From positions 1 to 34,172 of the IMG/VR virus record IMGVR_UViG_3300025120_000248: DNA of 34,172 bases. One strand, given 5' to 3'. This document shows, in pieces, positions 13,401 through 34,172 of the stretch (within the stretch, counting starts at the first letter, position 1; each line of letters starts with the position of its first letter). The position numbers and the translations under genes were made by a program. The notes under the pieces were generated by a model. That model worked only from the letters and a program-made list of their open reading frames with translations, made no database searches and had not been told where the DNA came from. This stretch comes from a virus.

Positions 13401-13904
13401 CCAGTAAAATACAAAATACTATTTGGGTCAAATGCAGACGAAGAACTACAAGCAACATTTAAAGTTGTAAAAAACAAAAATACTAATGTTACAGATGCAG
13501 TAATTAAGACAAGAGTAATACAAGCTATAAATGAGTTCTTTGCACTGGACAACTGGGATTTTGGAGATGCATTTTATTTTACAGAATTAGCCGCTTACAT
13601 ACACAATCAACTTGCTCCAGATTTGCTTACAGCAGTTATTGTACCTAATCAATCAGGACAGACATTTGGGTCTCTGTTCCAGATCAATTCCGCGGCAGAC
13701 GAAATTTTTATCAGTGGGGCCACCGTTGATGATGTTTCGATTATTACAGCACTAGGAGCCAATCAATTGGCGGCTTCAGGTACAGTGGTAACGTCAACAT
13801 CAACTGCCACAACCAACACCACAACAGGATCAGCAGTGTCAGGCTCTACTACAACAGGTACCGGTTCAAGTTCAAGTTCCGGCAGTAGTGGATCAGGATA
13901 CTAA
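10416..13904 (+). CDS. 6: Baseplate wedge protein gp6, enlarged (1162 aa)
   Basis: Central wedge protein that dimerises into the ring around the hub. The N-terminal part (FKSYDFETLRRTMVAYLKE, then FVESSEYVALIDLIAYI, then ARENFLETAERRNSVLRLA, residues about 28-110) is the conserved gp6/gpJ-like baseplate core. T4 gp6 has 660 residues, so about 500 extra are present, mostly in the middle and C-terminal half. One insert holds an aspartate run FFDDDDDGVVDNPELFD near residue 814, resembling a calcium-binding DxDxDG loop. The C-terminal part (about 1030-1130) again looks like wedge core (KIRVIQAINEFF-like helix, TELAAYIHNQLAPDL). The last 40 residues are Ser/Thr/Gly low complexity ending SGSGY. Its stop overlaps the giant gene's start as TAATG. 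Confidence 0.88.
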   Translation: MATTDRQNRLLVAEDWRKIYQSFQQADFKSYDFETLRRTMVAYLKENYPDDFNDFVESSEYVALIDLIAYISQALSFRVDLNARENFLETAERRNSVLRLARLINYNAKRNLPATGLLKVNTISTTQDVLDSSGTNLSNSTIIWNDSANSNYREQFTAILNAANQTGQLFGNPRESAKIGGIDTEVYTLSSTQLDVPVFGFTKAIGGTNRKFEIVPSTINKSETIFESAPVPGTGLTYTYRSDGSGDSSNTTGFFFLFKQGTLESQTFSVDTAITNYVKSFSTSNINDTDVWLYKLDQFGQVSEEWTKIPSFTGNNAIYNSLAKSERNSFNVVTKVNDAIDLVFGDGNFSNLPLGDFRTYYRTSDNSKYAIQPADMQSVVLNLPYTDNNGALQTLTMTMGLRSSVYNSSATESNASIKEKAGQVYYSQNRMITAEDYQVVPLSASQEIVKVRSVNRSASGISRAKEILDPTGAYSNVNVFAEDGILYREESTQQFTFTFNDRGNIQSTIDTAVESKLKEAYARQFYYLKYTAKDLSNLSATWNSTTTSTNTNTGYFTSGGALVVGEYATSNFKFAKPGALVKFTSPDTREFFNNSLVTAGTDNAENRSWAKIGAVVLDGANAGVGNLEDGTGPVTLNNVIPNGAIVNSLIPAFTTSFSATLEADLINRIVEYEEFGLRYDQDSEEWKVITSTNLSSSSVFSTARQGDTSGTNLDASWWFKFANDGNTYTVTYRKLDYIFESEAQNKFHYDIEENIFDYKTGKSVKDTVKILKTNSIVSTGNSIGYTIPWQVVDTVTEADGFQDNRKVKVGFFDDDDDGVVDNPELFDIIVEPDTSATTKFVFFEKYISYDTIERFKPYAATNFLVSKNEADITLSAITYTDGQLFYFYDEEEDVIKKYSSTTNTLTTTTDYIARRGRSSMNFQYTHHAGQETRIDPSVSNIVDIYMLERTYDNLFRIWLQDGGTKPTESTSDQLRINYSGKLNPLKSLSDQIIFHPVKYKILFGSNADEELQATFKVVKNKNTNVTDAVIKTRVIQAINEFFALDNWDFGDAFYFTELAAYIHNQLAPDLLTAVIVPNQSGQTFGSLFQINSAADEIFISGATVDDVSIITALGANQLAASGTVVTSTSTATTNTTTGSAVSGSTTTGTGSSSSSGSSGSGY

Positions 13905-19900: not shown

Positions 19901-22900
19901 TCAAGCGTTTCAGATCACAAGACTGTCATAGTAGATTATACAGGAAACACAGCATTTATTCCAAATTTGGAAGACGGCTCAACTGCAGATACTTACGGAA
20001 ACATTTACAAATTTATATCAGTAAGATTAAATTCTATGGACAACGTCAATGATTTGATCAACTATGCTGATTACAACGATAAAGCGGATTCAATATCAAA
20101 ACCTGGAGACAAGGTTTATGCAGATACCGACAGTTCGGGACTATGGCAGGTATATGAGAAACAAGATCCTTACGTAGCAAAAATTCAAAAATCAACAGAT
20201 ATTGTAACATCAGATCAAAATTTTGGACATAGGATAGTTGCACGTAACGACGGTAGAACTATTGTTGTGTCTGCACCAGGCAAAGGACAAGGTGAAGTTC
20301 ACTTCTTATTCCGTTCAAGCACGGAAGCAGGTGCAGTCTTAAATGCTCAGTCAGTACAGACTATGACAGAAAATGATGATGCAACAAGTAGATTAGGTGA
20401 ATCACTATCAATGAGTACAGACGAGAACTTTGTAGTTGCTGGTGCACCATATACCAATGCAATAAGTTCAGATGGTAGCACAAGATTCAGCGACAACGGG
20501 CTTATAAAAATTTACGTTTGGGAGCCAACAACATTTAGTTACAATGTACTCAACACAATCACACCTCCTTTAGATGGTTCAACATCTGATTCGTCACAAG
20601 CACAGAACTTTGGATGGTCTCATAAGATTTCAGAACCAGGAGCAAGTTCGGCAAGAGCAACACCAGTGAAGTATCTTTTTGTAGGTGCTCCTGGATATGG
20701 ATCAGATACAGGACAGGTTTACATGTATGAATGGGGAATAGGTGCAGACTTATCAACATATGATACATGGACAAACTGCCTAACTTTAACATCAGCTGAT
20801 CCAGGACAAGGCAAAAGATTTGGGCATAGATTAGAAGCTAACGATACGGGGGATATACTTGCAGTAAGTTCACTTGCACCCGGCCAAGCAGGAAAAGTTG
20901 AAATTTACGTGAGAACTTCACAAGCAAATGACGACAGTACACAACATTCGTTTAGTCTTGCACAGACATTGACAGGTAGTAGTGCTGACGGATCAACACT
21001 TAACACAGGGTTTGGTGATGCGTTAACTATGACACACGATGGGGGTGTGCTAATAGTTGGTGCTCCAGGAGTTGACGGAACAGATACTGACACAGGTGCA
21101 GTATATTATTACAAATGGAATGCTGACGGATCAACAAACACATACACATTACAGCAAACAATAAATGGCCCAGACTCAAAATCTAACATGAAATTTGGCA
21201 CAAGTCTTGACATAAGCGACAATGGAGCTAGATTAGTAATAGGTTCCGAACAGGCATCCACACCTAGAGAAATGAAAGTTGACTCAGGTGCAACAACATT
21301 TGATTTACAAGACACAACAATAAGTGATTTAAATGTAGGTTCAGGTGCGGCATTCACTGCAACTATGTACAATACTCACTTTGTAATAGATGACAAATTA
21401 GTAACCGACAGCGTTTCGCCTAACGATGATTTTGGAAAAGGCGTTTGTATCATTGACAACTCCGTTATAGTTGGTGCACCACAAGATGAAGGTAACACTG
21501 GCTTACTCAATGACGGAACAGCAGGAGTATTTGATTTATCAGCAGATGGAGAATATGCATGGAAAAATATAGCATCTGAAACAGCACTAATGGATACAAA
21601 CAAACTTGGACAGGTATTTGATTTTAATAACAAAACAAAACAAGTTCGAGATTACTATGACTTGCATGATCCAGTCAAAGGCAGAATATTGGGAGTAGCT
21701 GATAGAGAAATAAACATCAAGACTACGTGGGATCCGGCAGTGTACAACATAGGGCCAAATGCAGATGTTAAGATTCCATGGGGAATAGAACACGTAGGCG
21801 AAGTATGGTGGAATCTATCAGCAGTGAAATGGACATGGTACGAGCAAGGTGATCAAGAATTTAAAACAAACAACTGGGGCAAACTTTTCCCAGGCTCAAG
21901 TATAGACATATATGAGTGGACAGAATCAAGACTGTTACCGAGTCAATGGAATACTTTACTTACAACAGCAGAAGGTAATACTTTAGGTTTATCAGGCACA
22001 CCTTTACACGCAGATGATTCGCAGTACACAGTAATTCAGAAATACAATTCAAGATTAGACACGCTTGTAGATTACTATTACTATTGGGTAAAAAATAAAG
22101 CAACAATGCCAACAAATAGTGTTGTAGAAAGAAAGAATACAACTGCATATGTGGCGAATGTAATTGCTAACCCGGAAAAATCTGGATTGAAGTATTATTC
22201 TGTAACAAGTCCTAACAGTTTGATACTGAATAATATAAGGAACTTGTCTCAGGACGATATTGTTTTAAATGTTGACATTAGGACCAATACATTTGATGGA
22301 GATTCACACGCGGTATGGAAGTTGGCAAAAGAAGGTGACAAAGATTATAGACCAGGACATCAGATTGAAACACGTTGGTGGGATTCACTAGTTGGACAAA
22401 ATGCTTCAGGTGATAAGGTTCCCGACATTGAATTGCCTATAAACGAAAGATATGGAAATAACATAAGACCGAGACAGAGTTGGTACGTAGATAGATTTGC
22501 GGCACTGAAAGAATTAATAGATTATGCAAACTCCGTCTTGATTAAACGGCAACTGGCAGGACAGATTAATCTTGCTAATCTGGATTCAAAAGATCCAGAA
22601 CCAACAAGTCAGAGTCTAGAGTGGGATACAAGCGTCGAAACATACGCAGACCTTACGTACATAAACACAGGTGATATTTCCGGATCAGTCAAGTATCTAG
22701 TAAAAGCAGATGAGACATCTAACGGATACTGGGCAATATATACCTGGGACGGCACAGAATTCACTAGAACAAAATTACAAACTTACAACACTTCTCCGTA
22801 TTGGAATTATGTAGATTGGTATGGCACCGATCCTGATGTACATCTAATGAATCACAGTGCAAATACTCCAATAGACAAGCAAGTAACATATGAGTACGAA

Positions 22901-25900
22901 CTAGACCAATTGAATTTGGAAGTAGGAAAACATGTGAAAGTTACAAATGCAGATACAGGTGGCTGGAAATTATTCATGCAGACTGCGTCAGGTTTTGTAA
23001 ATGTTGGAACGGAGAATGGAACAATTAGGTTGTCTACTAAACTTTATGATTACACACAAGATGCTACAGGATTTGCTGGAGATGACACATTCGATGATAA
23101 CTTCTTTGACCAAGAACCTGCAATAGAAACAAGGAAAATTTTAACAGCATTACGAGACGATTTATTTGTTGGCGATTTAGCATTAGAATACAACACACTT
23201 TTCTTTACAGGATTGAGAAGAGTGCTGTCTGAACAAACATATGTTGACTGGATGTTTAAAACATCCTTTATCAATGCTAAAAACTCTGTCAGAGCATTAG
23301 ATCAAAGAAAGACTTACACATTAGGTACAGATGATTGGATAGAAAGTTATATCAATGAGGTGAAACCTTTTCACACAAAATTGAGAGAATACAAATTAGG
23401 AAATACAGCATTAGATACACAGGACGGATTATTTACAGACTTTGACAGCCCGGCATTCTATGATGTGTCTATCGGAAAAATAAGACCATTTGATGTTGAC
23501 AGGGACAGTGGCAAACTAACAGAATATCCATGGCAGATGTGGAATGACTATCACAAGAAATATGTTTCTTCAATAACTGTTAGCAAATCAGGTTCTGGGT
23601 ACACTAAAATTCCAACAGTAACAATACTTGGAGGCACGACAGGATCAACAGGCCCATTCCAAATTCAGGCAACAAGCTCGAGTGGTGCATCGTCAGGCAG
23701 TTACGGCTATTACTACCCGTTGTTCACTAGTGAAGATCAGGCAAAGATTTGGGATTCGCAGAATGGTGGATCCGGTGTGGCACACTCTCACACATTCGAT
23801 GGGTACGCAGGAACGTTCTACATGCCAACAAGTCAAATTTCTAATCATGCACTGGCAGATAAATCCGGAACATACAAAATGTATGTCACACCTAGCACAA
23901 CAGCGGCAATTGCCACTGCAAAAGTATCTAACGGTAAGGTGACAGCGATCACGGTAACAGGTCTTGGTGCAAATTACACTTCAACACCTAAGGTGGCAAT
24001 CACAGGCGGTGCAGATGATGGATCGACACCAAGTGATACTGCAATAGCATATGCAAATTTAAAAAATGATCTTGTAAGAGATCTAGACACGACAATAAAA
24101 TTTGATAGGGTATCAAGCACGTCAAGTGTTGTTGATTGGACAGCATCTACTAGCTATGCATACGGACAACTTATTAGATACAACAATGAATTGTACAGGG
24201 CAACCAGTGCCTTTACATCAACAACAGACTTTGATGATGGAGAAAACGATCTTTACAAGTTCCGGGGCGATGAAGTAGGACTGACAGCCGCGGATAGAAC
24301 AAAAGGTTTCTATGCACCAGTGTCAGGCATGCCAGGAAATGAACTTTCGCAGGTTATGTCAGGAGTTGACTACGGTGGCACAATGGTGACAGGATTACTG
24401 TTTGATCAGAACCAAGGATGGGATAGATCTAAATGGTATGATTTTCCTTGGGATTCGTACGGTGTATCAAGAGTGAAAGCGTTTAGCTCCGACGGCCTTA
24501 CAGCTACATTTACAATCACACCTGCACCGGCTATCACAGAAGTGTACATGGTATATGTAACATCTGATGACAGCACTAGGAAAAAACGAAGCGAAATTTT
24601 TAGAGGTGATGGTTCAACAACAGCGTTCACACTAACTTCTATTCCAGATGCAGGAGCATTAGTAGAATTTATACCTTTCGATGACGACGGAGTGTTAACT
24701 CCAACAGATGATAGAACCCTTGACTCGATAGTCAAAGGTGGCCTATTTGGGTCTGCAATAGGAACAGCACCAAGCGATATATTGTTGGAAGGTGACGATT
24801 TCTTATCTCCAGCCACTAGCTATGCTCCAGAAGAAACAGTACCAGGGCAACTATTTGACACATTAGACATCAAAGTTTACACATCTCCAGAATCAGGTGT
24901 GCCATTTGTATCTAGCAAGAATCATAGAGGTGACGGAACGACACTGACGTTCAGTATAGGCGACTATCCAGGAACATTAGGTTCTGTGACGGTTTCAGTA
25001 AACGGTGTGACTCAAAAAGTTTCACTAGATGGGTCAACTGCTGGAGACTATTCGGTTGATATTGCAGGCAAAACAATTACTTTTCTAAGTACAGCACCAG
25101 CGGTCAACAGCGTGGTGGCAACAAAAGTTTTTGCGATAAGTGGTGAGAATTATAGAGTGCTTGACCAGTATACCGGTGATGGAAGTACAGTTACATTTAC
25201 AACAGGAATAAGAGATGATTTCAGTCCTATATTCACAAGGACTACTTCTGAAATATACATTACCATCGATGGTGTGCCAACAACAGCATACGCAACCACA
25301 ACTACTGCAGGTTCATTTACAGTTACATTCAACACGGCACCGACAGCAGATGCATTTGTACAGATTGCAGGATTTAACAGATCAGGATTAAGTTCTCGAA
25401 GTCATGCCAGTGTTAGAAATGAAAAAATTACATATGATGGATCAACAAATAGATATACGTTGACTTATCCGCCAGGATCAGTTGGACCATTCTCAGCCTT
25501 AACAATTATAGAAGTAAATGGAAAAGTACTCAGAGGACCTGACATTAGTTACTTCCAGGGAGACGACAGCACGTACAGTTACCAAGCACACCAGCACACT
25601 GATTTCTTTACAACGGATCAAACTAATATCACAGTTGACTCATCAACAACGACAGCAGATGCATTTATATTTGTAGATCGTGGAGAAGATTCAACAATAG
25701 ATCCACCTAAAACTATTACAAGTGCAGACCAAGTACAGCTTCATGTCAATGGAGTGTTGCAGTTGAGAAACACTGACTACTACCTAAACATAGGCGAGGG
25801 AACAGAGACAGCAGACGTCACTACTACAAAGGCAGACTCTAACACGATAACAGCTGACACGGAATCAGTCACTAACAGTGTGAGATTAGACGTACCAGCA

Positions 25901-26959
25901 TCATCTACGGACTTGGTTGCTTTGACAACTATTGTTGACAAGCACTTTCACAACGAGGGCACAGACATTATAATAGATCCAACAAAATTAGCGGTGGATG
26001 GCCAAACGATATCAGCAGGCGACATAATGTCAGTGACTACATTTAATAATGCATTAGGTATGAAACAGAGAAGAGAAGTGCTAGAAGGAAAACCAAACGG
26101 AGTATACAAATTGAGGTTCGAACCATTGAACGCTTCTTACACTTATGTTTGGTTGAACGGAGTTCAATTAGTACAAGGTTTTGATTTTACAATAGCAGGT
26201 AACACAATCAAAGTAGCCGGCAAAACAATGACATTGACAGACAGATTAGATGTCATGTATTTTGCAGTACCAAGTGCGACAAAAGCCACTGGGTTTAGAA
26301 TATTTAAAGACATGTTAAACAGAACTTTTTACAAACGTATCAGCAAAACAGCAACAACTGAATTAGTTGACGAGCTGACAAGCGAGTCTCAAACAATGCA
26401 AGTGACAGACGGCACTGTTTTGCCAGAGCCAAATGCGGCAAACAATATGCCTGGCGTTGTGTTTGTTGACAAAGAAAGAATAGAATACTTTACAAAATCA
26501 GGTGCAACATTAGGACAATTAAGACGTGGAACACTTGGAACAGGAATTAAGGATCATAGCGATGGCACATTAGTGGTAGATGCCAGCGGAACTCAAACTA
26601 TACCTTATGCGGATTCAGTATACACCAACACCTTTACAGGTGACGGTAGTACTGTTGTTTTCGCACTATCACAAGCCCCAGCCTCCGCTAGTGAGTTAGA
26701 CATATTCATTGGTGGCCAACGATTGTTGCTTACTAGCGAGGATGGATCAACTATTAACTACTCTGTGGACGGAAGCACAACAGCAGTGACCTTAACTACT
26801 GCACCAGCTGATGAAACACAGGTCAAAATCTTACATAAGAAAGGACAGGTATGGTACACAGCGTTAGACGGCAATCCAGCGGATGGTAAAGGCTTACAGG
26901 CATCCACTACAGGACAAGCTAAATTCATAGCTAATGAACCAACAAACGCACCTGAATAA
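13904..26959 (+). CDS. Giant mosaic baseplate/tail protein in the gp7 position (4351 aa)
   Basis: A single uninterrupted frame of 4351 residues, translationally coupled to gp6 by TAATG. In T4, gp7 (1032 aa) follows gp6, so the N-terminal part is the likely wedge arm, though I see no clear gp7 match. Modules by eye: N-terminal structural region with HLPAFYRTD (about 28-36); cupredoxin-like domain (about 178-297; His226, Cys281, His284, Met287); large wedge-like regions to about 2090 with a carbohydrate-binding-like module near 1665-1708; FG-GAP propeller (about 2100-2560); a tryptophan-rich segment (VGEVWWNLSAVKWTWYEQGD, about 2630); GSGYTKIP and GANYTSTP strand repeats around 3225 and 3350 flanking an HSHTF-containing domain; a second carbohydrate-binding-like module (about 3409-3455); and GDGST beta modules to the C-terminus. 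It has no signal peptide and no membrane segment. It is probably a baseplate-rim scaffold that also carries receptor-binding or adhesive domains. Confidence 0.8.
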   Translation: MADNTTNSLTNNEVVKQGNNEYRRTVQHLPAFYRTDSNQRFLSSTLDPLVQKGALERLDGFIGRQDSYTRDVKDRYLTATNRDRMAYQLEPAVTYTDKDTTSVNPEDQVKFTGTYDDYINQIKYFGGKIDNHDRLNKETVYSWNPAIDYDKLINYREYYWIPEGVNAIEIDSVGPSAVAEYKVEVSKDDGSSAKAYVFPHRENETNPIIKLYRGNTYKFNVDAQGHPFYIMTEPYKSMVAEDGSSSTLWTTGVTNNGADQGTVTFTVPTTGTIPNTLYYQCGNHDAMYGILQIRDVTTLANINPEDEIIGVKNYSLRTVDLSNGMKIKFTTDKLTSGSSYKTKEYYVEGVGDSITLTDVEDLIAPGSYSKESTIAYDSVAYDTRPYAKSFFTPVAQDYITIKRDSRDQNAWSRYNRWFHRSIIEETGRINGYTPSLDEGDRAKRPIIEFDSGLALYNHGTVAKKSVTLFDTVTKDAFSTISQQTGYIVDGLALADGMRIIFAGDTDPIVKNRIYKINFATAGDSTQVISLTPEDDSVPADKDSIFIEFGTVNTGKTFYYDSATTSWVEAQQKTKVNQQPLFGMWDNTHTSFDDATVYPGSTFAGAKVFEFATSDTAIKDTVLGIKVKYNTINNIGDIVFDSDHTSGTFTYKVGAKTITKNLAEGHLHYTTSRERHNSRSAWVKRTIDSKQRVIRTVIVDKTEKKLFPIDVYKNSASLTDLEVSVSVNGKRKTLTTDYLLVNGATNKYVKFVKDLAENDQIRIASYSSADKIQNKGIYEMPDNLSHNGLNQQLGTFTYGQILGHVRDILDRNQDVTGTIPGVCNLRDKANARLKGGSIQQHESSLLPAVFGLIDQEANVMTSIDYVNLEYEKWYNAFLTHAMGTAYEGIAADRVDEIITAITLGRKSSFPFYYEDMVGWGENVSTRTYTVQGSLQTEYALDSQHDITTTSNRAVYVFLNDVQLILGSDYTFSTLDDSVNITATLAAGDIIKIKDYADTTGSYMPPSPTKLGMYPKFKPESFTDTTYITDTVVIRKHDGSIIKAYGDERDDLILELEKRIYNNCKVAYDSTLLDLNDVMPSAFTSTEYALQEVNDVMGSDFYIWAGRNNVQYINNLTFSEGSPFTYNYGRSTDRLNGHSLPGYWRGIYNYFYDTDAPHLRPWEMLGHSEKPTNWETLYGPAPYTSANDVLWTAIETEPGRYGKPEIKSYLPVDASGNLLDPLAAGLVDNFDIPGRQASWKFGDRAPAETAWRRSSAYPFTAMKTLALTKPAKFFSDFLDNSRLTTNISGNRIYKDTGVRQQLSTSKYHLEISTDNDTGITTRYQTAGYQPFVVNYLISRNLDPTVFYINKMKNLSVQLAYKLGGFTDKDNLKVLTDSVSPGSTSGSKFIPDENYKILFRTSNPVESFQYSGVLIEKNTDTGTDGSTLLGGYKVLGYSTTKPFFKFNYPVKTTTHSPVSVADSVVVKRYTAFREFTQAIPYGHVFDTIQDVADFLFGYGHWLEEQGFKFNKFSNELKETLNWSNAVREFLFWTTQEWAPGSAVTVSPAADGFELDTDNSIVGRLRNLAGDYSLLDAGGRKIDIRELSTKRIGKTFELGVKSDNGLYNVALNTVQKEHVLLFDNSTAFADIIFDPYTGFRQQRLKLVGWKTSGWNGDYYAPGFVFDAAEVTYWLPSTDYNIGDSVEYQGRFYVAKLNHNSETTFENKNWILKDKKPAPQLIPNFEYKISQFNDFYNLETNNFDESQQQLAQRLIGYQSRDYLENLFVNDVSQYKFYQGYIREKGTQNAIDQILKAQYEGEDIDLELYPEWMIRTGRFGNTDATESIQVLLKDNEVSGNPQSIELFDTTNETREFYRSLYVGASALYKKPVEYSAKNTFGRLDYTKAGMDRDYAQVYKTAGYPRTTQVQHTAFNITDLLNLDVNSISANDLIWVANKSNKDWDVVRMTNAKIKIAELRTMNGTTQLEITFTGSHGLLAQTPTSLADYFAIANSEEPTLNGVYQVSSVSDHKTVIVDYTGNTAFIPNLEDGSTADTYGNIYKFISVRLNSMDNVNDLINYADYNDKADSISKPGDKVYADTDSSGLWQVYEKQDPYVAKIQKSTDIVTSDQNFGHRIVARNDGRTIVVSAPGKGQGEVHFLFRSSTEAGAVLNAQSVQTMTENDDATSRLGESLSMSTDENFVVAGAPYTNAISSDGSTRFSDNGLIKIYVWEPTTFSYNVLNTITPPLDGSTSDSSQAQNFGWSHKISEPGASSARATPVKYLFVGAPGYGSDTGQVYMYEWGIGADLSTYDTWTNCLTLTSADPGQGKRFGHRLEANDTGDILAVSSLAPGQAGKVEIYVRTSQANDDSTQHSFSLAQTLTGSSADGSTLNTGFGDALTMTHDGGVLIVGAPGVDGTDTDTGAVYYYKWNADGSTNTYTLQQTINGPDSKSNMKFGTSLDISDNGARLVIGSEQASTPREMKVDSGATTFDLQDTTISDLNVGSGAAFTATMYNTHFVIDDKLVTDSVSPNDDFGKGVCIIDNSVIVGAPQDEGNTGLLNDGTAGVFDLSADGEYAWKNIASETALMDTNKLGQVFDFNNKTKQVRDYYDLHDPVKGRILGVADREINIKTTWDPAVYNIGPNADVKIPWGIEHVGEVWWNLSAVKWTWYEQGDQEFKTNNWGKLFPGSSIDIYEWTESRLLPSQWNTLLTTAEGNTLGLSGTPLHADDSQYTVIQKYNSRLDTLVDYYYYWVKNKATMPTNSVVERKNTTAYVANVIANPEKSGLKYYSVTSPNSLILNNIRNLSQDDIVLNVDIRTNTFDGDSHAVWKLAKEGDKDYRPGHQIETRWWDSLVGQNASGDKVPDIELPINERYGNNIRPRQSWYVDRFAALKELIDYANSVLIKRQLAGQINLANLDSKDPEPTSQSLEWDTSVETYADLTYINTGDISGSVKYLVKADETSNGYWAIYTWDGTEFTRTKLQTYNTSPYWNYVDWYGTDPDVHLMNHSANTPIDKQVTYEYELDQLNLEVGKHVKVTNADTGGWKLFMQTASGFVNVGTENGTIRLSTKLYDYTQDATGFAGDDTFDDNFFDQEPAIETRKILTALRDDLFVGDLALEYNTLFFTGLRRVLSEQTYVDWMFKTSFINAKNSVRALDQRKTYTLGTDDWIESYINEVKPFHTKLREYKLGNTALDTQDGLFTDFDSPAFYDVSIGKIRPFDVDRDSGKLTEYPWQMWNDYHKKYVSSITVSKSGSGYTKIPTVTILGGTTGSTGPFQIQATSSSGASSGSYGYYYPLFTSEDQAKIWDSQNGGSGVAHSHTFDGYAGTFYMPTSQISNHALADKSGTYKMYVTPSTTAAIATAKVSNGKVTAITVTGLGANYTSTPKVAITGGADDGSTPSDTAIAYANLKNDLVRDLDTTIKFDRVSSTSSVVDWTASTSYAYGQLIRYNNELYRATSAFTSTTDFDDGENDLYKFRGDEVGLTAADRTKGFYAPVSGMPGNELSQVMSGVDYGGTMVTGLLFDQNQGWDRSKWYDFPWDSYGVSRVKAFSSDGLTATFTITPAPAITEVYMVYVTSDDSTRKKRSEIFRGDGSTTAFTLTSIPDAGALVEFIPFDDDGVLTPTDDRTLDSIVKGGLFGSAIGTAPSDILLEGDDFLSPATSYAPEETVPGQLFDTLDIKVYTSPESGVPFVSSKNHRGDGTTLTFSIGDYPGTLGSVTVSVNGVTQKVSLDGSTAGDYSVDIAGKTITFLSTAPAVNSVVATKVFAISGENYRVLDQYTGDGSTVTFTTGIRDDFSPIFTRTTSEIYITIDGVPTTAYATTTTAGSFTVTFNTAPTADAFVQIAGFNRSGLSSRSHASVRNEKITYDGSTNRYTLTYPPGSVGPFSALTIIEVNGKVLRGPDISYFQGDDSTYSYQAHQHTDFFTTDQTNITVDSSTTTADAFIFVDRGEDSTIDPPKTITSADQVQLHVNGVLQLRNTDYYLNIGEGTETADVTTTKADSNTITADTESVTNSVRLDVPASSTDLVALTTIVDKHFHNEGTDIIIDPTKLAVDGQTISAGDIMSVTTFNNALGMKQRREVLEGKPNGVYKLRFEPLNASYTYVWLNGVQLVQGFDFTIAGNTIKVAGKTMTLTDRLDVMYFAVPSATKATGFRIFKDMLNRTFYKRISKTATTELVDELTSESQTMQVTDGTVLPEPNAANNMPGVVFVDKERIEYFTKSGATLGQLRRGTLGTGIKDHSDGTLVVDASGTQTIPYADSVYTNTFTGDGSTVVFALSQAPASASELDIFIGGQRLLLTSEDGSTINYSVDGSTTAVTLTTAPADETQVKILHKKGQVWYTALDGNPADGKGLQASTTGQAKFIANEPTNAPE
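14435..14794 (+). other. Cupredoxin-like domain inside the giant protein
   Basis: Residues about 178-297. Hydrophobic strands (IIKLYRGNTYKFNV, GTVTFTVP, LYYQCGNHDAMYGILQI) fit a small beta-sandwich of the plastocyanin type. The potential type-1 copper ligands are His226 (AQGHPFYI), Cys281, His284 and Met287, in a C-x2-H-x2-M loop with the same spacing as amicyanin. Metal binding is inferred from the ligand pattern only. Confidence 0.65.
18896..19027 (+). other. Carbohydrate-binding-like module (CBM5/12-type), first copy
   Basis: Residues about 1665-1708 of the giant protein. Pattern: TYWLPSTDYNIGDSVEYQGR, then FYVAK and NWIL. Short aromatic beta modules of the type W-x-Y-x2-GD-x-V-x-Y-x-G-x2-Y occur in chitin-binding and tail-associated domains. 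A second, weaker copy lies at 24128-24268. The ligand is not known. Confidence 0.4.
20201..21583 (+). other. Seven-repeat FG-GAP-like beta-propeller in the giant protein
   Basis: Residues about 2100-2560. Seven units each open with FG or LG followed by a strand and, usually, VGAP or VSAP: NFGHRIV...VVSAP, RLGESLS...VAGAP, NFGWSHK...FVGAPG, RFGHRLE...AVSSLAP, GFGDALT...IVGAPG, KFGTSLD...VIGSE, and DFGKGVC...IVGAPQ. Between them are turns rich in Asp, Gly and Ser, as in integrin-alpha-type propellers, where Asp-rich loops bind calcium. Seven blades would close a ring. Blade 6 is degenerate, with a long insertion before blade 7. Confidence 0.7.
24128..24268 (+). other. Carbohydrate-binding-like module (CBM5/12-type), second copy
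   Basis: Residues about 3409-3455 of the giant protein: DWTASTSYAYGQLIRYNNEL, then YRATSAFTS. It shares the W-Y-G-V/L-Y-N/G-Y-A spacing of the first copy about 1740 residues earlier, but is divergent. It lies shortly before the GDGST-repeat region. Confidence 0.35.
24599..26860 (+). repeat. GDGST-type beta-module repeats at the C-terminus of the giant protein
   Basis: Four clear modules start with an aromatic/basic residue then GDGST or GDGTT, at residues 3566 (FRGDGST), 3674 (HRGDGTT), 3756 (YTGDGST) and 4244 (FTGDGST). Each continues with a TxFTL-type strand, a P-rich turn, a strand with VNGV, IDGV or IGGQ, and a TAPA-type end. Degenerate relatives occur around 3837 and 4050. The codons for the shared motif differ between copies (GGTGATGG, GGTGACGG), so these are old protein-level repeats, not recent DNA duplications. 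Such modules occur in fibre-like virion proteins. Confidence 0.6.
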
Positions 26960-27700: not shown

Positions 27701-28921
27701 ATGGCTTACATTGTAAACAAAACAAATAGTTCGGCTTCCCCGAACCAATTCACAGTACAGGATGGTGTTGTAAACACACAAACTGATTTAAGTTTTGTTG
27801 GAAAAGGCTATGCAGGTTATGGTGAACTGATAGCAGAGAACTTCCTACACTTAATGGAAAACTTTGCTAACACATCAGCACCACCTAAACCTGTGACAGG
27901 ACAGCTTTGGTGGGACAGCTCTGCTGTTAGATTGAAAGTTTGGAACGGTACAGCATTTACCTCACCTGGTACAGCACCATACCAATCAGATCCACCAGAG
28001 AACATGACGGCAGGTGACACATGGATTGACTCTGACACAGGACAATATTATTTTTACAACGGAACACAAAGTATTTTAGTTGGTCCACCAAGTACCACAG
28101 GTACGCAATCTGGATTTGTCTATGAGAGCATATTAGATTCAGATGATAATCTACAAAACGTGACACTTACCTACAATGACGGAGTCCTAGTTTATATCGT
28201 ATCTGATGTAGAATTTATACCTAAGGTATCAATATCAGGGTTTGCAACTATCAAAAAGGGATTGACTCTATCTACTGCTATTTCAGGCAATAGGTTTGCC
28301 GGCACAGCCACAGACTCAGATGCATTGGGAGGCGAATCAGCATCTACATTCTTAAAATCTAATGCAAATGACACCACAACAGGCACACTAGGTATTGTAA
28401 ATGACACAGGTTTGACTGTTGGTGTTGACAGTGATTTATCAGTTACTGTGGACAGCACAGGTGCAATAATTTCAAATGTAATATCAGACACTGACATTAC
28501 TTTCAAGGTAAATGATGGTGGTACAACCACAACTGTAATGACTCTAGATGGATCAGTTGCTCGTGTTGGTATTGGAACAACTACACCTACTACAAAATTA
28601 GAAGTGGTAGGAACGGTAAAAGCCACAGCTTTTGAAGGAATTATAGCAAATGGTGGAAGTTCATCATTTTCGGGCTTGACATTACTACAAAATGGCAATA
28701 TAGTATTTGAAGGAGCCACTGACGATGACAACGAAACCACTCTTACGGTAATCGATCCAACGGCAGACAGGACCATTTCCTTACCAAATGTATCGGGTAC
28801 GGTTATAACAACAGGAGATAGTGGAACAGTGACCAAAGACATGTTAAAATCAACAGTAACTCTACAAATACTCAACTCATCAGGATCAGTCTTAAAAACT
28901 ATACACGGCGCAGGAGCATAG
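27701..28921 (+). CDS. Tail-fibre-like virion protein (406 aa)
   Basis: N-terminal residues 1-90 contain the pattern ENFLHLMENFANTSAPPKPV, then GQLWWDSS and LKVWNGTAF, which I recognise from structural fibre proteins of marine T4-like phages and which is probably the virion-attachment part. The remainder (about 140-400) is beta-rich, with Asp/Thr/Gly repeats, VARVGIGTTTPTTKLEVVG and ATAFEGIIANG; the GIGT-TKLEV-GTVKA segment is typical of fibre shafts. Unlike many such fibres it stops soon after, without an S74 domain. AGGA lies about 10 bases before the start. It is probably a short fibre or whisker at the baseplate rim. Confidence 0.72.
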   Translation: MAYIVNKTNSSASPNQFTVQDGVVNTQTDLSFVGKGYAGYGELIAENFLHLMENFANTSAPPKPVTGQLWWDSSAVRLKVWNGTAFTSPGTAPYQSDPPENMTAGDTWIDSDTGQYYFYNGTQSILVGPPSTTGTQSGFVYESILDSDDNLQNVTLTYNDGVLVYIVSDVEFIPKVSISGFATIKKGLTLSTAISGNRFAGTATDSDALGGESASTFLKSNANDTTTGTLGIVNDTGLTVGVDSDLSVTVDSTGAIISNVISDTDITFKVNDGGTTTTVMTLDGSVARVGIGTTTPTTKLEVVGTVKATAFEGIIANGGSSSFSGLTLLQNGNIVFEGATDDDNETTLTVIDPTADRTISLPNVSGTVITTGDSGTVTKDMLKSTVTLQILNSSGSVLKTIHGAGA

Positions 28922-28924
28922 GCC

Positions 28925-29857
28925 ATGACGGTTAGAACACCCCTATACTGGAACGGAGACCAGATGCAGGAGATGAAGTCTACACAACTGACCGAACAAT
29001 ATAATCTTGGAATATATTATTACAGTTTACAACCATCAGTAGCTTTATCGGTATCTGGTTCAGGCGGAAATCTTACATCTATAGACGATACAAGATTACA
29101 AGCTGGAGCGGCATCTACGGCATCAGGTTCTTTTCCAAGCGAGGCAACGACAGCAGAGCCAAGTGTTGTGACAACATCATACCAAAGGATCACACAAACT
29201 CTTAATTCGGTCACACCAACATCAGACACAGGTGTAACGTTTCCGGTTTACTGGAACGGCACTCAGGTACAAGCAATGACACAGGCAGATTTTTTAGATA
29301 CTTTCGTTATACCAGCAATAAATTTAATGGCATTGGGAGATATCACTGTATCGCAGGGTGGCACATATCACGTGTCAACGTCGACCACAGTCACTGGATC
29401 TGCATTAGTATCAAGTACACCAATTTTCTCAGACACAAGAGCAGATACATCATTGTACTCGGCTGGAAGCATACCTGAATCGCAAGATCAACCTACAACA
29501 GTAACTAATTACTACCTACACAAAATAGAAGGAGACTCAGGCGAGCCATCAGTCATTGCAACTTTTCTTGATAGCAATAACGATATGAAACAGTTTTCGT
29601 CAGCATCATTGGGCGGATTAATGGCAGAATATATTCAGCAACAGGTGGTGTCGTCATCCACAGGATACACTCTACGTTATAACGTGGATGGCAGTGGCAA
29701 CACTAGGGGTACCGCAATGGTAAACACAATACTAACTGGAGGCAGTGGTAACTATCAACAGCTTTTTGCCAGCGGAAACGATTACAGAGCACAGGAGTTC
29801 CCAGATGGTTCACCAAGTACAGCAAACACATATAACTTTAAGATACTGAAAGCATAG
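28925..29857 (+). CDS. Conserved virion structural protein (310 aa)
   Basis: Begins TVRTPLYWNGDQMQEM and resembles a virion protein family conserved in cyanophages, including the stretch SVSGSGGNLTSIDDTRLQAG (residues 42-61) and PSEATTAEPS (71-80). A tandem internal motif is clear: PLYWNGDQMQEM near residue 6 and PVYWNGTQVQAM near residue 107, suggesting two related domains. The composition is Ser/Thr/Gly-rich and beta-like, with no catalytic motif. The AGGAG ribosome-binding site lies within the end of the preceding gene, and the start is only 3 bases after that gene's stop. Its function in the virion is unknown; a baseplate-periphery or neck location is equally possible. Confidence 0.72.
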   Translation: MTVRTPLYWNGDQMQEMKSTQLTEQYNLGIYYYSLQPSVALSVSGSGGNLTSIDDTRLQAGAASTASGSFPSEATTAEPSVVTTSYQRITQTLNSVTPTSDTGVTFPVYWNGTQVQAMTQADFLDTFVIPAINLMALGDITVSQGGTYHVSTSTTVTGSALVSSTPIFSDTRADTSLYSAGSIPESQDQPTTVTNYYLHKIEGDSGEPSVIATFLDSNNDMKQFSSASLGGLMAEYIQQQVVSSSTGYTLRYNVDGSGNTRGTAMVNTILTGGSGNYQQLFASGNDYRAQEFPDGSPSTANTYNFKILKA

Positions 29858-29867
29858 GAGATAGACA

Positions 29868-30185
29868 ATGGCAATATTCACAGGAAAAGTAATAGAGGCG
29901 TACTACACAAACGCAGATAACACTTGCATAGAAGTACTATACAAGGAGGGAGAGAAAGCAGTTGTTTACTACATGCAACCAGATATGCTTGATCCAAATT
30001 TTAAGGCCTTGTTGAAAGAGTATTCACTGGAAAAGATAAAGGAATCAACAGCACAAAGAAATAAAAATGCAACTAACCAACTTGAAGAGATCGTTAACAA
30101 GCACGTAGAACAAAGATTGAATGATCTCCTCCAAAAAGGTTCTATAACTAAAGAACAATTCGAAAAAGCTAAAAACCAAAACTAA
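29868..30185 (+). CDS. Small conserved phage protein, paralogue A (105 aa, SHOCT-like end)
   Basis: The N-terminal 60 residues (MAIFTGKVIEAYYTNADN..., YKEGEKAVVYYM, EYSLEKIKEST) form a small beta domain shared with the next gene. The C-terminal part is helical, and LLQKGSITKEQFEKAKNQ resembles a SHOCT motif, a short oligomerisation helix pair found at protein ends. Its ribosome-binding site GGAG lies 10 bases after the upstream stop, so it belongs to the end of the late structural transcript. No function is known to me; related proteins appear near structural genes in marine myoviruses, so it may be a minor virion or assembly factor. Confidence 0.7.
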   Translation: MAIFTGKVIEAYYTNADNTCIEVLYKEGEKAVVYYMQPDMLDPNFKALLKEYSLEKIKESTAQRNKNATNQLEEIVNKHVEQRLNDLLQKGSITKEQFEKAKNQN

Positions 30186-30201: not shown

Positions 30202-30230
30202 TTGACTTCTGATGCTTAATACTTTATAAT
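30202..30230 (+). promoter_or_regulatory. Sigma-70-type promoter between the two paralogues
   Basis: TTGACT (30202-30207) and TATAAT (30225-30230) with a 17-base spacer: a five-of-six -35 and a perfect -10 for bacterial housekeeping sigma. Transcription would start near 30237, close to the AAAGGA ribosome-binding site (30236-30241) of the next gene, so the leader is short. This is not a late TATAAATA element, implying that the downstream cassette can be read early by unmodified host polymerase. Confidence 0.7.
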
Positions 30231-30248: not shown

Positions 30249-30719
30249 ATGGCAATATTCAGTGGTAAAATTATCGAGGCTTGTTTTGCAAACTCAGAAA
30301 ATAACACAGTTGAAGTTATATACAAGGATGGAAACAAGGCAATCAATCACTATCTTGCTGTAGATTTTAATAATCAAGACTTTAAAGATCTTATTGCAGA
30401 ATATAATACAGACAAAATTGCTGAGGCGACAATAGCAAGAAATAGGAACTATGCTAGACAGATAAGTGACATGGTTGATGAAGGAATAAAATCAAGGACT
30501 GACATCAAAAAAAAAGTTTCTGTAGAAGACTTTGTTAAAAAAATTTTAAAATTTGATCCTGCTGATCCCGAAAGCAAAGAAATATTGTTTACGACTAAAA
30601 TTGAGATATTTGAGACAGACAAATTAAAAAAATCTACTGATAAAGAATATAAAAAAAGATTGAGGTCAGCCAAAACTCCAATTGAACTATTGGCTATCTA
30701 CAACGAATTAAATGATTAA
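30249..30719 (+). CDS. Small conserved phage protein, paralogue B (156 aa)
   Basis: Residues 1-75 match paralogue A closely (MAIFSGKIIEACFAN, VIYKDGNKAINHY, FKDLIAEYN, ATIARNRNYARQ), so the two arose by tandem duplication. The C-terminal half is different: about 80 residues rich in Lys, Asp and Glu (KKKVSVEDFVKKILKFDPAD, then KEYKKRLRSAK) in place of the SHOCT-like tail of A. AAAGGA precedes the ATG at good spacing and the sigma-70-type promoter lies just upstream. Its stop overlaps the start of the glycosyltransferase-like gene by 8 bases, so it opens the enzyme cassette. No function is recognised. Confidence 0.7.
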   Translation: MAIFSGKIIEACFANSENNTVEVIYKDGNKAINHYLAVDFNNQDFKDLIAEYNTDKIAEATIARNRNYARQISDMVDEGIKSRTDIKKKVSVEDFVKKILKFDPADPESKEILFTTKIEIFETDKLKKSTDKEYKKRLRSAKTPIELLAIYNELND

Positions 30720-31287
30720 TGTATACAGTGTCAATGTTGGAACAAAATATGATAGGGACTTTGATCAAAGATTAAAAGATTCTATTGCAAAACATCTTAC
30801 ATTAGAACACACGTTCACTTGCCTAACAGATAAACCCGAAAAAGAATATGACATGACTGTCACACACCCTCAACTGCGAGGCGTATTCCATAAGCTATCA
30901 CTGTTTCAGTTTACAGGTAATTGTTTGTTTTTTGATTTAGACATTCAGATAAATGATAACATTGATTTCCTAGCCAACGAGTTTGATAAGCTAACACTTG
31001 TGAACAGCAGTCCATGGAAACAGCAGTCACTTAAAGAACCATTAAAATTTAGAATAACACAAAACACATTGATCAACTCGTCTATAATGCGTTGGACCGA
31101 TGAAAGAAAAGTTTTTGAAAAATTTATGAAACACAGGGATCTTTATGTAAGACTTTACTCGGGTATCGATAGATTTATATACAATGAAGATGTCAAGTAC
31201 AAGTATTTTATGGGAGATGCGATATCTAGCTGGCAGGAGGGTGTAAGTCATAATACAGTGATGTTACACAACCAAAAATATGTTTGA
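30712..31287 (+). CDS. Glycosyltransferase-like protein, GT-A type (191 aa)
   Basis: Begins INVYSVNVGTKYDRDF and carries FTCLTDKP, a KLSLFQF helix and CLFFDLDIQI with a DxD motif (Asp75, Asp77), the metal/nucleotide-sugar site of GT-A glycosyltransferases. LINSSIMRW follows near residue 120, like the acceptor-side loop in these enzymes. At 191 residues it is compact and lacks any membrane segment, so it would act in the cytoplasm. It overlaps the genes on both sides by 8 bases. Donor and acceptor are unknown. The family is called from the motif layout; enzymatic activity is not certain because the C-terminal metal-binding His is only tentatively visible (VMLHNQ). Confidence 0.65.
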   Translation: MINVYSVNVGTKYDRDFDQRLKDSIAKHLTLEHTFTCLTDKPEKEYDMTVTHPQLRGVFHKLSLFQFTGNCLFFDLDIQINDNIDFLANEFDKLTLVNSSPWKQQSLKEPLKFRITQNTLINSSIMRWTDERKVFEKFMKHRDLYVRLYSGIDRFIYNEDVKYKYFMGDAISSWQEGVSHNTVMLHNQKYV

Positions 31288-31936
31288 TAGAAATACTTTA
31301 GATACAATAAAGAGAATGTTGGACGGCAACACGGACAGGATTGTAGATATACTAAACAGTTTAAGTGCCAACCAGTACAGTAGCAAGGACTGGTTGATCG
31401 AAAAACTGAACGAATATCCTCATCATTACAGGTATAAAACTCTAGATAAAAAAATTGATATTACTCTTCTAGCGAGTTGGTATGGTTTATTGGCATACAG
31501 GTTAATAGATAAATTTCAACTGAAGAAAATAGGTCATATAGATTGTATCGATTTTGATCCTGCGGCAAAATCAGTAGCAAAAAAATTATGGAAAAAAATA
31601 GATGCTGACAATTTAAAAAACGGCAAGTTGACCTATGTGAAGTTCATAGAGCAAGACATCAATACAATTGACAATATACAGTCTCCCATAGTGATTTGTA
31701 CATCATGTGAACATCTTGATCAGGCCACAATATATAACACCATAAGTAGATTAGAGGAACATACGTTGGTTGTTTTGCAGAGCAACAACTATAAAGAAGT
31801 CGCAGAGCATGTCAATACTGTGGATACTGTTGAGGATTTCGCAAATCAATACGTGTCTAAACTGAGAAATATGAAAATATACGAAAAAGATTTTGTCAAA
31901 TACAAAAGGTTTATGATAATTGGAACAAAAATATGA
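31280..31936 (+). CDS. SAM-dependent methyltransferase-like protein (218 aa)
   Basis: Class I Rossmann-like layout. ITLLASWYGLLAYRL (about 61-75) stands where the SAM-binding glycine loop is expected. HIDCIDFDPAAKSVAKK (about 86-102) gives motif II with an acidic residue for the ribose, and IVICTSCEHLDQ (about 135-146) is in the motif IV position. The glycine loop is degenerate (SWYG), a variant I associate with phage-encoded relatives. The substrate cannot be read from the sequence. It overlaps the upstream gene by 8 bases and the downstream gene by ATGA, so it is made together with the two glycosyltransferase-like proteins. Fold call is moderate; activity unproven. Confidence 0.6.
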   Translation: MFDRNTLDTIKRMLDGNTDRIVDILNSLSANQYSSKDWLIEKLNEYPHHYRYKTLDKKIDITLLASWYGLLAYRLIDKFQLKKIGHIDCIDFDPAAKSVAKKLWKKIDADNLKNGKLTYVKFIEQDINTIDNIQSPIVICTSCEHLDQATIYNTISRLEEHTLVVLQSNNYKEVAEHVNTVDTVEDFANQYVSKLRNMKIYEKDFVKYKRFMIIGTKI

Positions 31937-32658
31937 TAGAAGATTTACTCAAGAAAAGACGTAACATATCCTTTTTCAAACAGGATAAAATTCCAGAGAA
32001 GCAGATGATAAAGCAGATTATGGAAAAAGCACAAGAATTGACACCGCACAAGAATAATTTTTGGCACTATGATATTGATGTCTACGGACCAGAGCACGTC
32101 AAACAAAAAAAGAAGTTGGCAATGTCTACAGTATGTGGAAAACATAAAAATGACAACGACCGCTGGCAGGGAGCCACAGACCAACAATGGAAGGATTTAG
32201 AAAAAGTATACGATGACTGGTTGTTGTATCATGCCGGAGATGAATCAAAAAATTACATCAAGGACGATCATTGGCATTTCAACGGTCAGGTAAACGCACC
32301 TTATTTGTTGGCTTATTATCCTGCTCCGGCAAAAATGAGAGAATCGCAAAAACACGGATACGCTTGGGAAAGTGGCAAGTTGGCCGACACATTTGAGCAA
32401 ATTGGCAAAGTACACAAAGATCAATTTAATCAACAGTGTGGCATGAATGCCATGGTTACAAGTTTGTTAGCAGTAGAACAGGGATTGGATGTGTCATTCT
32501 GTAAGTGCTACTTCTATCATCCAATGGTCCATAATGACATAACACACAGACCAGGACTTGCGTTCACTTTGGGAATTGGATATGGTGATTATGAAAAATT
32601 CAATCACAAGAGCTGGGTACAGAAACCAAGCATTGATGAGGTAATCAGGTGGCAATGA
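31933..32658 (+). CDS. Nitroreductase-like flavoprotein (241 aa)
   Basis: N-terminal LLKKRRNISFFKQDKIPEKQ, and then MEKAQELTPHKNNFWHYDI, reproduces the nitroreductase-family opening (Arg pair for FMN phosphate, IP turn, helix, PxxxN segment). Further on are CGMNAMVTSLLAVEQGLDV (the family's helix over the flavin) and a C-terminal LGIGYGDY followed by QKPSIDEVIRW, like the usual end with a KP-x-E-x-V motif. Members are FMN-dependent NAD(P)H oxidoreductases or act on modified ring systems; the substrate here is unknown. The middle part (about 60-150) contains an unusual Trp/His/Lys-rich insertion. Stop and start overlap neighbours as ATGA on both sides. It is unusual in a phage tail-adjacent region. 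Confidence 0.65.
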   Translation: MIEDLLKKRRNISFFKQDKIPEKQMIKQIMEKAQELTPHKNNFWHYDIDVYGPEHVKQKKKLAMSTVCGKHKNDNDRWQGATDQQWKDLEKVYDDWLLYHAGDESKNYIKDDHWHFNGQVNAPYLLAYYPAPAKMRESQKHGYAWESGKLADTFEQIGKVHKDQFNQQCGMNAMVTSLLAVEQGLDVSFCKCYFYHPMVHNDITHRPGLAFTLGIGYGDYEKFNHKSWVQKPSIDEVIRWQ

Positions 32659-33359
32659 AGATCATAGCAGTGCGTATTGGCGACAGATACGGACCAGAAT
32701 ATGAAAAATACCTTGAAGAGAAACTTCCTGAGTATGAATTTGTATGGGTGCGTAAACCGATACGGGACGATGTGTTGCTACAATGGAACAAGATGCATGG
32801 TATGTCGTTGGACATAGACGAACCTATCTGTGTCATGGACATTGATGTTCTACTTGTAAACAATTACAAAGAATTATTTGAATACCCCATCAAGAAGGGC
32901 CAGTTTGTTTCAATACCTGGATGGTGGAGAGACACTGAAAAAAAGAGATACAAGATCAATGGTGGATTTTTCAAGTACTATCCCAAAGACTGTAGATATA
33001 TCTATGATAAGTTTATAGAGGATCCGGACCTATGGCAGAATTATTATATCAAACGAGGCATAGCAAGGGGACCTGTGAATGGTGAACAGTACTTTGTAGA
33101 GGACAATGTAAACGAAGAACTAGAACTTATTACTGTACCAGAGAGCTGGGTTGCTCGATGGTGTGCAAAAGAAGAAATAGGAGTGAAGAATTTTGATTTA
33201 AATAAATGGAAGGTCAAAAATAGTCAGTTGTACCACCAAGTTACGGGCAACGACTACGTTTATTTGGGCGGCGAGTTCCATCCAGACATAAAGATGGTGC
33301 ATTTTACACACGCATTGAATAAACCGCATGACTGGGAGGATTATAAGGATTTTATATGA
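32655..33359 (+). CDS. Glycosyltransferase-like protein, second copy (234 aa)
   Basis: Starts at the ATG at 32655, which overlaps the previous stop as ATGA; an in-frame GTG at 32649 is possible but has less support. MKIIAVRIGDRYGPEYEKYL is related in layout to the first glycosyltransferase. VMDIDVLLV (Asp62, Asp64) is the DxD motif, INGGFFKYYP (101-110) the acceptor-side loop, and HFTHALNKPHDW near the end supplies a C-terminal metal-binding His. All three GT-A landmarks are present, which makes this the more convincing of the pair. The sequence is clearly divergent from the first copy. The next gene overlaps it by ATGA at 33356-33359. Confidence 0.72.
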   Translation: MKIIAVRIGDRYGPEYEKYLEEKLPEYEFVWVRKPIRDDVLLQWNKMHGMSLDIDEPICVMDIDVLLVNNYKELFEYPIKKGQFVSIPGWWRDTEKKRYKINGGFFKYYPKDCRYIYDKFIEDPDLWQNYYIKRGIARGPVNGEQYFVEDNVNEELELITVPESWVARWCAKEEIGVKNFDLNKWKVKNSQLYHQVTGNDYVYLGGEFHPDIKMVHFTHALNKPHDWEDYKDFI

Positions 33360-33919
33360 TAGTGTTGTACGGATACATGATATATTGGGTGGTAGCCGCA
33401 GTTGGTATAACCTACGGATACCATAGATATTTCGCACACGGTGATCGTAAGGTTAGTTCACTAGCAGAAATAGTGTTGCTTTACCTTGGATTATTATGTG
33501 GTGGTAGAAGTGCTCTGACATGGTCCGGTGTGCATAGGATTCACCATGCTCATGCAGACACAGATAGGGATCCACATAGCCCAAAAAATTATCCGTGGTA
33601 TGTAATACTTTTCAGTCTTTGGAAAGTTAAACAAATACCAAGAAAATACATGATAGATCTAATGAGAAATCCAAGAGTGATGTTTTTCCACAAATACGGT
33701 ATGTTCATTTTTGCCGCACACTGGTTAATAACACCATTGCTTTTTGGCGTAAATGCAGTTATAATAAATCTAATGTTGTTTATTCTTTCATATGTGGGTT
33801 TTGGTATACTGAACTTTTACGGACATGATGCCAAGGGTCCTGCAAACAATTTATTGATAAATTTAGTTGCACCGTTCGAAGGGAACCACAAGGATCATCA
33901 TGATTACTCAAAAATTTAA
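33356..33919 (+). CDS. Compact fatty-acid desaturase (187 aa)
   Basis: Membrane di-iron desaturase of the acyl-CoA/acyl-lipid delta-9 type. All three histidine boxes are present: HRYFAH (His23-His28), HRIHH (His60, His63, His64) and NHKDHH (His178, His181, His182), plus an extra GHD (His157). Hydrophobic segments at about 4-20, 36-55, 113-133 and 136-155 give the expected membrane helices. Bacterial relatives are usually around 250-320 residues, so this is a stripped version missing mainly N-terminal sequence: the first box comes only 23 residues in. It would introduce a double bond into host membrane acyl chains. Electron donors must come from the host or from the neighbouring nitroreductase-like protein, which is speculation. 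Confidence 0.85.
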   Translation: MIVLYGYMIYWVVAAVGITYGYHRYFAHGDRKVSSLAEIVLLYLGLLCGGRSALTWSGVHRIHHAHADTDRDPHSPKNYPWYVILFSLWKVKQIPRKYMIDLMRNPRVMFFHKYGMFIFAAHWLITPLLFGVNAVIINLMLFILSYVGFGILNFYGHDAKGPANNLLINLVAPFEGNHKDHHDYSKI

Positions 33920-34172
33920 CAGAAACAGCAGTGCAGAGTACGTGCAGATGGACTTTGATGTCCCGGTCAAACAACTGTTGACGGAATACGAACTGATCAA
34001 AGACCGATTAGTGATACACAGACCAGAAGATGGTCACAAAGATTGGTGTGCAGTAACCTTGTATGGATTTGATTCAGATAAAACAAACAGTCACTGGGAG
34101 TATGATCGTAAAAAACAAAAGCCAGGCATAACTGATGTTGGTGAACGTTGTCCACGCACAATAGAGTGGGTT
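33900..34172 (+). CDS. Possible aspartyl/asparaginyl beta-hydroxylase-like protein, cut by window edge
   Basis: A frame opening at ATG 33900, within the end of the desaturase gene (20-base overlap), and open to the right edge; 91 residues are visible. The segment WCAVTLYGFDSDKTNSHWEY, followed by GERCPRTIEWV, resembles the N-terminal part of 2-oxoglutarate/iron-dependent aspartyl/asparaginyl hydroxylase-like proteins found in marine phages, in which a CP-x-T segment precedes the iron-binding HxD. The iron ligands would lie beyond the window, so the assignment is tentative. It continues the same overlapping operon. Confidence 0.5.
   Translation, partial: MITQKFNRNSSAEYVQMDFDVPVKQLLTEYELIKDRLVIHRPEDGHKDWCAVTLYGFDSDKTNSHWEYDRKKQKPGITDVGERCPRTIEWV

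Follow-up and report, generated by a model that had tools for sequence, protein, structure and literature searches.

A promoter-led glycosyltransferase block exchanged between unrelated large marine phages and probably altering the surface that phages recognize

The uncultivated virus contig IMGVR_UViG_3300025120_000248 (IMG/VR record), whose whole length of 34,172 bases is the window analyzed here, ends in a run of overlapping enzyme genes directly behind tail fibre genes. An initial annotation, made from the letters alone, had picked out six overlapping plus-strand open reading frames (30712-34172) and read them as one enzyme cassette; these reading frames were confirmed, and they recur in order in other marine virus contigs. 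The locus contains the following features.

27701-28921, plus strand: FIB1, a tail-fibre-type protein that matches PHROGs of virion structural and tail fibre proteins
28925-29857, plus strand: FIB2, a putative fibre or virion protein rich in Ser/Thr (26%), preceding the block
30202-30230, plus strand: promoter of the sigma-70 type (TTGACT-17-TATAAT), marking the 5' border of the swapped block
30249-30719, plus strand: TFL, 156 amino acids (aa), which opens the block and belongs to an undescribed family
30712-31287, plus strand: GT1, a predicted GT-A, GT8-like glycosyltransferase with a DLD motif, 191 aa
31280-31936, plus strand: MT, a predicted Rossmann protein of the class-I S-adenosylmethionine (SAM) type and putative methyltransferase, 218 aa
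31933-32658, plus strand: NR, a putative divergent flavoprotein of the nitroreductase family, 241 aa
32655-33359, plus strand: GT2, a second, predicted GT-A-like glycosyltransferase, 234 aa from its ATG, closing the block
33356-33919, plus strand: DES, a short membrane fatty-acid desaturase of the acyl-CoA/DesA type, 187 aa
33900-34172, plus strand: HYD, the N-terminal half of an AspH-family Fe(II)/2-oxoglutarate hydroxylase, 91 aa before the contig end

From GT1 to HYD the successive junctions overlap by 8, 4 (ATGA), 4 (ATGA), 4 (ATGA) and 20 bases; the listed start of GT2 is a GTG located 6 bases upstream of the ATG. The contig terminates within HYD, a protein of ~194 aa in relatives, so the list of six genes is incomplete. 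The promoter is real in the sense that TTGAC-N17-TATAAT/TACAAT is found immediately 5' of the TFL start in 10/10 close loci with diverged spacers (a bare scan for the sigma-70 consensus shows no excess, 28 sites against 25.7 expected). It does not, however, head a set led by GT1, as had been proposed: TFL follows the promoter and overlaps GT1 by 8 bases, and both lie on the same transcript, which starts with TFL at 30249.

TFL, GT1, MT, NR and GT2 are one co-inherited, promoter-led block, and DES-HYD starts a separate module. Pairwise gene distances among ten loci of the window's lineage, compared by Mantel tests, correlate strongly for these five genes (r 0.86-0.98, p 0.0005-0.004; TFL against the other four, 0.87-0.95), a correlation driven largely by two allele classes. 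Against the structural gene p241 the same five give r values of 0.11-0.25 (p 0.07-0.31), against FIB1 of -0.06 to 0.10, against FIB2 a weak 0.33-0.52, and against DES or HYD about 0. When the window is compared with L004, L006 and L051 (L-numbers are labels of the compared loci or contigs), identity is 88-93% for p241, 81-86% for DES and 84-90% for HYD, while from TFL to GT2 it drops to 36-67%, which sets the boundaries between FIB2 and TFL, at the promoter site, and between GT2 and DES. DES and HYD also appear together in L009-L012, where GT1, MT and GT2 are missing. The six genes are therefore not the natural unit that had been supposed, since two of them are inherited apart and TFL had been left out.

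All six genes were found in the same order in L002, L004-L008 and L013-L015 (L008 being the same contig as L014); the L003 contig stops within HYD. Some of these syntenic loci carry insertions, namely a 452-aa protein before GT2 or, before DES, a radical SAM gene or a pair of further reading frames. Past HYD, the enzyme genes of relatives run on to a second fibre gene and include more members of the AspH family, one of the TauD family and methyltransferases, among others; the enzyme block thus sits between FIB1/FIB2 and a second FIB1-type gene, a paralogue that terminates the downstream enzymes, in a structural region that is hypervariable. A scan with a GT2 profile recovered 66 viral loci, 47 of them distinct at <95% identity. 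A GT1-family gene lies upstream on the same strand in 43 of the 47; in the other four, GT1 is on the opposite strand (one locus) or there is <2.2 kb of upstream sequence (three). An MT-family gene is present in 33/47. Nineteen GT2 loci have the cassette in inverted orientation with respect to FIB2/TFL, and it is then GT2 that adjoins TFL. What lies between GT1 and GT2 varies: NR, methyltransferases, AspH-type hydroxylases, a family of ~430 aa, PP-loop ATPase-like proteins and radical SAM proteins (match to NF033640 with E=2e-59). The family of ~430-480 aa has no Pfam match and often stands directly after a hydroxylase (L075:5655-6983 and 15 other loci), and the PP-loop genes are of the QueC/TilS-like type (L094:5207-6001, L058:6720-7475 and L007:13776-14744). 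Measured against the refuting condition that the initial annotation had set itself (random co-occurrence, or independently replaced cargo), the outcome is intermediate: co-occurrence in related genomes is far above random for GT1 with GT2 and holds mostly for MT, whereas NR, DES, HYD and the others rather resemble exchangeable cargo. The idea of co-oriented, overlapping genes acting as a functional unit survives through the synteny of relatives and the GT1-GT2 linkage, although not for all six genes as a single unit.

The block is also found in a second phage lineage, called here the VrlC lineage. In five of its loci (L038, L039, L040, L042 and L043) GT2 is 85-88% and GT1 62-77% identical to the window copies, and NR is far more diverged, 41% where GT2 reaches 85-87% (L039 and L043). 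On L038, L039 and L043, short loci in which not all backbone genes could be compared, tblastn gave no match to the gp6-like baseplate gene, the giant structural gene (both described below) or p241 of the window. On the GT2 tree the lineage label has to change at least three times, as the starred branches dictate. Fibre genes are common to both lineages as well, though more diverged, with FIB2 at 50-53% identity between them. By sequence comparison, the block has been transferred between the two phage lineages.

The assignment of GT1 and GT2 to glycosyltransferases comes from deep profiles, single-sequence scans of both (and of MT) against Pfam and PHROGs being uninformative. Their DxD motifs (DLD in GT1, DID in GT2) are invariant across the alignments, as is GEQ in GT2, and the two proteins are homologous (hhalign 98.7%). 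The deep GT1 profile matches mostly glycogenin structures across the DxD region, weakly (E about 0.009), and Glyco_transf_8 is hit in 1/31 members of the GT1 family (E=0.0017). The predicted fold of GT1 has weak structural matches, several GT-A enzymes among them, which we take as a hint; AlphaFold models of GT1 and GT2 built on alignments of 8 sequences were too poor for use (pLDDT 46 and 41). No convincing PDB match was obtained for GT2 with a 32-sequence profile. With the deep profiles, the two are supported as related GT-A, GT8-like glycosyltransferases, which retains the initial call in this narrower form. GT2 as a recently captured host gene was rejected: it was found at two loci in 85k prokaryotic genomes, both on phage-like contigs. 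The phage island does occur on contigs of metagenome-assembled genomes labelled Flavobacteriales and Chloroflexi (L116 and L117), probably misbinned or integrated phage sequence, and in L092 GT1, NR and GT2 look fragmented, by frameshift errors or gene decay.

Among the remaining enzymes, MT has a deep profile that matches spermidine synthases (E=1e-5), an invariant SCEH motif and several members with weak matches to Methyltransf_11/25/31, which supports a class-I SAM-type fold and leaves methyl transfer itself putative. NR stays below the PF00881 cut-off (16.6 against 23.5 bits, E=0.0095), and its profile matches PDB nitroreductases (E 0.001-0.02). The desaturase call is solid. DES passes the PF00487 cut-off (34.8 against 29.7 bits, E=2e-8), aligns with the acyl-CoA desaturases 4zyo/4ymk (E=2e-13) across all His boxes and keeps H23, H28, H60, H63, H64, N153, H157, H178, H181 and H182 invariant. 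Cyanophage lipid desaturases were reportedly described by Roitman et al. in 2018. The Arctic vFAD is another virus-encoded fatty-acid desaturase of the same superfamily (PMC7300359). With such enzymes DES shares the structural match to 4ZYO; unlike them, it is just 187 aa long and lies within a glycosyltransferase island. HYD is equally solid through full-length relatives, L002:10545-11126 matching PF05118 with E=1.3e-12 (48.2 bits, cut-off 22.6). The HxD...H iron site (H116/D118/H163) is conserved in these relatives and lies past the window end, the window copy stopping short of it. The nearest curated NCBIfam models of HYD are the lipid acyl 2-hydroxylases OlsC (E=0.004) and LpxO (E=0.03), which agrees, weakly but concordantly, with the acyl-desaturase matches of DES in suggesting a lipid-linked target.

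TFL was found in 44/53 loci analyzed, mostly adjoining glycosyltransferase genes, and FIB2 in 39 of them. No convincing match to TFL was found in Pfam or PDB. In its alignment, T61 alone among the Ser/Thr residues is invariant, with S129 nearly so. The window has two TFL copies, one of 105 aa (29868-30185) before the promoter and the 156-aa copy (30249-30719) after it, 41% identical; close relatives have a single one. Regarding expression, perfect 12/12 sigma-70 sites were found 5' of the gene that opens the inverted cassette (L061 and L069) and 5' of FIB2 (L070 and L078), and T4-type late motifs are enriched 5' of FIB genes (21/40 against a background of 17%). In the window, T4-type late promoter motifs (TATAAATA) are located at 3986 and 10394, directly 5' of a structural gene (4038) and of the gp6-like gene (10416). 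These data favour non-late transcription of the block, which does not by itself prove a host-directed role.

Upstream, the window codes for SbcC/SbcD-like proteins, a T4-type late sigma factor, gp25-like and gp6-like baseplate proteins (the latter of 1162 aa) and, at 13904-26959, a giant virion structural protein of 4351 aa that matches phrog_10938 and includes a phrog_460 head-closure-type stretch. The gp6-like and late-sigma proteins are closest to those of the jumbo phages Atu_ph07, SCTP-2 and PA5oct. A 139-kb contig of the same lineage (L053/L120) has a terminase nearest to PA5oct-type phages (55.6% identity), whereas that of the VrlC lineage (one contig) is nearest to Phage C48C1 (71.8%) and then to cyanophages (48%). 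The Agrobacterium phage Atu_ph07 (L018) has a 4449-aa counterpart of the giant gene in the equivalent position, followed by a slot with three radical SAM genes and hypothetical proteins. The window is best explained as holding the beginning of a host-recognition island in a jumbo-like marine phage related to T4. A SAR11 (Pelagibacterales) host is probable, given that this phage has FIB2 and relatives of the cassette genes in common with the SAR11 phage Mosig.

The block is a module swapped between unrelated large marine phages, which most likely alters a surface recognized by phages. Remodelling of a host-surface glycan or glycolipid is the best explanation, to which we assign a probability of roughly 45%, with a pathway and a substrate that we infer; the glycan or glycolipid pathway first suggested thus remains the most plausible reading, although no longer as a joint pathway of six genes, which fall into two modules. 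GT1 and GT2 would add sugars successively to an acceptor in the envelope of the infected cell (lipopolysaccharide [LPS] core, O-chain or glycolipid), and the methyltransferase, flavin reductase, 2-oxoglutarate hydroxylases, radical SAM proteins, desaturase and others would modify the added sugar or the lipid part. The outcome would be a surface specific to each phage. The likely benefit is that a masked or altered receptor would exclude other phages and avoid re-adsorption of the progeny, which would suit an island that adjoins tail fibre genes and diversifies through swapping. More tentatively, TFL-GT1-[variable tailoring enzymes]-GT2 could be a modular, phage-specific glycan-writing system that passes whole from one large phage to another, unrelated one, the fixed glycosyltransferase pair and its dedicated partner TFL framing interchangeable modifiers to give each phage a distinct sugar signature; the exchanging phages would then probably share hosts.

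Several points weigh against remodelling of the host surface. No family here belongs to the known LPS-modification systems (gtr-type), and neither a flippase nor a membrane glycosyltransferase was seen. The membership of NR, MT, GT1 and GT2 in their families is read from weak or profile-level similarity, and HYD as a genuine LpxO/OlsC is ruled out by score (13.5 against 500 and 16.2 against 450 bits). DES and HYD, being separately inherited, may serve a different purpose. FIB1 (in its N-terminal part) and FIB2 are common to both lineages, so that the transfer may exceed the enzyme block. The SAR11 host itself is deduced from shared genes. Finally, the close linkage to FIB2/TFL suits decoration of the virion equally.

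In this main rival, which we regard as unlikely though not markedly so, the sugar attached by GT1 and GT2 would sit on FIB1/FIB2 or TFL and be diversified by the tailoring enzymes, changing adsorption or shielding the particle. Whichever the orientation or lineage, the block does lie between FIB2 and a second fibre region, TFL co-varies with the glycosyltransferase genes, and the closest solved relatives of GT1, the glycogenins, glycosylate protein. A sigma-70-type site is also present 5' of FIB2 in several relatives; this weakens the use of such promoters to divide "host-acting" from "virion" genes, and the promoter of the block is thus no proof of a non-structural role. FIB2 and FIB1 are rich in Ser/Thr (26% and 25%), but this is commonplace in fibres. 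An acceptor might be expected to co-vary with its enzymes, yet FIB1 shows an r of about 0 and FIB2 of 0.33-0.46 with GT1/MT/NR/GT2, and it is not obvious what a desaturase would do on a protein.

That the genes are independent cargo, gained separately at a recombination hot spot beside the fibres and without a joint pathway, is less probable still. The highly variable GT1-GT2 interval, the separate inheritance of DES/HYD and their occurrence apart from GT1, MT and GT2, and the uneven divergence of NR and GT2 across lineages all suit it; the fixed-order linkage of GT1 and GT2 (43/47) and the tight co-variation of TFL, GT1, MT, NR and GT2 do not. A modified peptide or small molecule made by these enzymes, with TFL as a small linked substrate or carrier, is very improbable: sets of radical SAM, AspH-type hydroxylase, nitroreductase and glycosyltransferase genes are known from peptide natural-product clusters, and Twitch-domain radical SAM and PP-loop ATPase-like genes recur within or beside GT1-GT2, but TFL has no leader/core layout, its alignment with T61 as the only invariant Ser/Thr does not support a peptide precursor, and no exporter or protease was found among the annotated neighbours.

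Islands of this type are already known, from pelagimyophages and from Mosig. The host recognition cluster (HRC) of pelagimyophages (Zaragoza-Solas et al. 2020, PMC7029224) is a hypervariable island that adjoins VrlC and combines tail fibres with GT8-type glycosyltransferases and radical SAM cassettes; its GT8 genes are read there as a means to change the host surface and avoid coinfection. Ours is likewise a hypervariable island of the structural region with tail fibres, and many of the related loci bear VrlC; the HRC has VrlC and gp14 at its borders, and the window, which covers the counterpart of the VrlC side, has no VrlC match; the 4351-aa gene and a gp6 nearest to jumbo phages take that position. 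The part of the HRC account drawn on here describes no GT1...GT2 bracket, TFL partner or defined block transfer between lineages. The Pelagibacter phage Mosig EXVC030M (MT647606) is an isolate with a comparable tail fibre island, annotated with nitroreductase-like, Asp_Arg_Hydrox, desaturase, TauD, methyltransferase, radical SAM and glycosyltransferase-like genes. It has the sole isolate match to FIB2 (51.6% identity over the full length), a relative of TFL and relatives of GT1, MT, NR, GT2, DES and HYD, but order and strand differ, the cassette proteins are mostly 27-36% identical, and there are additional carbamoyltransferase, aminotransferase and MoaA-like genes. By tblastn, gp6, the giant gene and p241 had no match in Mosig or the tested VrlC loci. 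The statement that no known phage pathway has this gene set was hence too strong, given Mosig and the pelagimyophage islands (PMC7029224). The large cyanophages P-SSM2, S-SM2 and S-SSM7 carry LPS gene clusters of unproven function (Sullivan et al. 2010, PMC3037559); by description rather than sequence, these are similar in grouping genes for surface polysaccharides within marine phages of the T4-like type, but their position differs (near hli03 or phoH). In the open-licence literature, a search on a five-term gene combination gave no result, and nothing was found on the TFL family, on GT1 and GT2 as a bracket or on an exchange of the block between these lineages, which is weak evidence of absence.

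Hypervariable glycosyltransferase islands in phages of SAR11 and cyanobacteria are usually portrayed as a jumble and are of unproven function; in the present island a fixed frame is visible (promoter, TFL, GT1 ... GT2). The block boundaries are measurable, and exchange is evident between two lineages without detectable common neighbouring structural genes. A vague "LPS-like auxiliary metabolic gene island" thereby becomes a defined, expressible and testable module, and the findings point to a contest over cell-surface chemistry in a dominant host group of the ocean.

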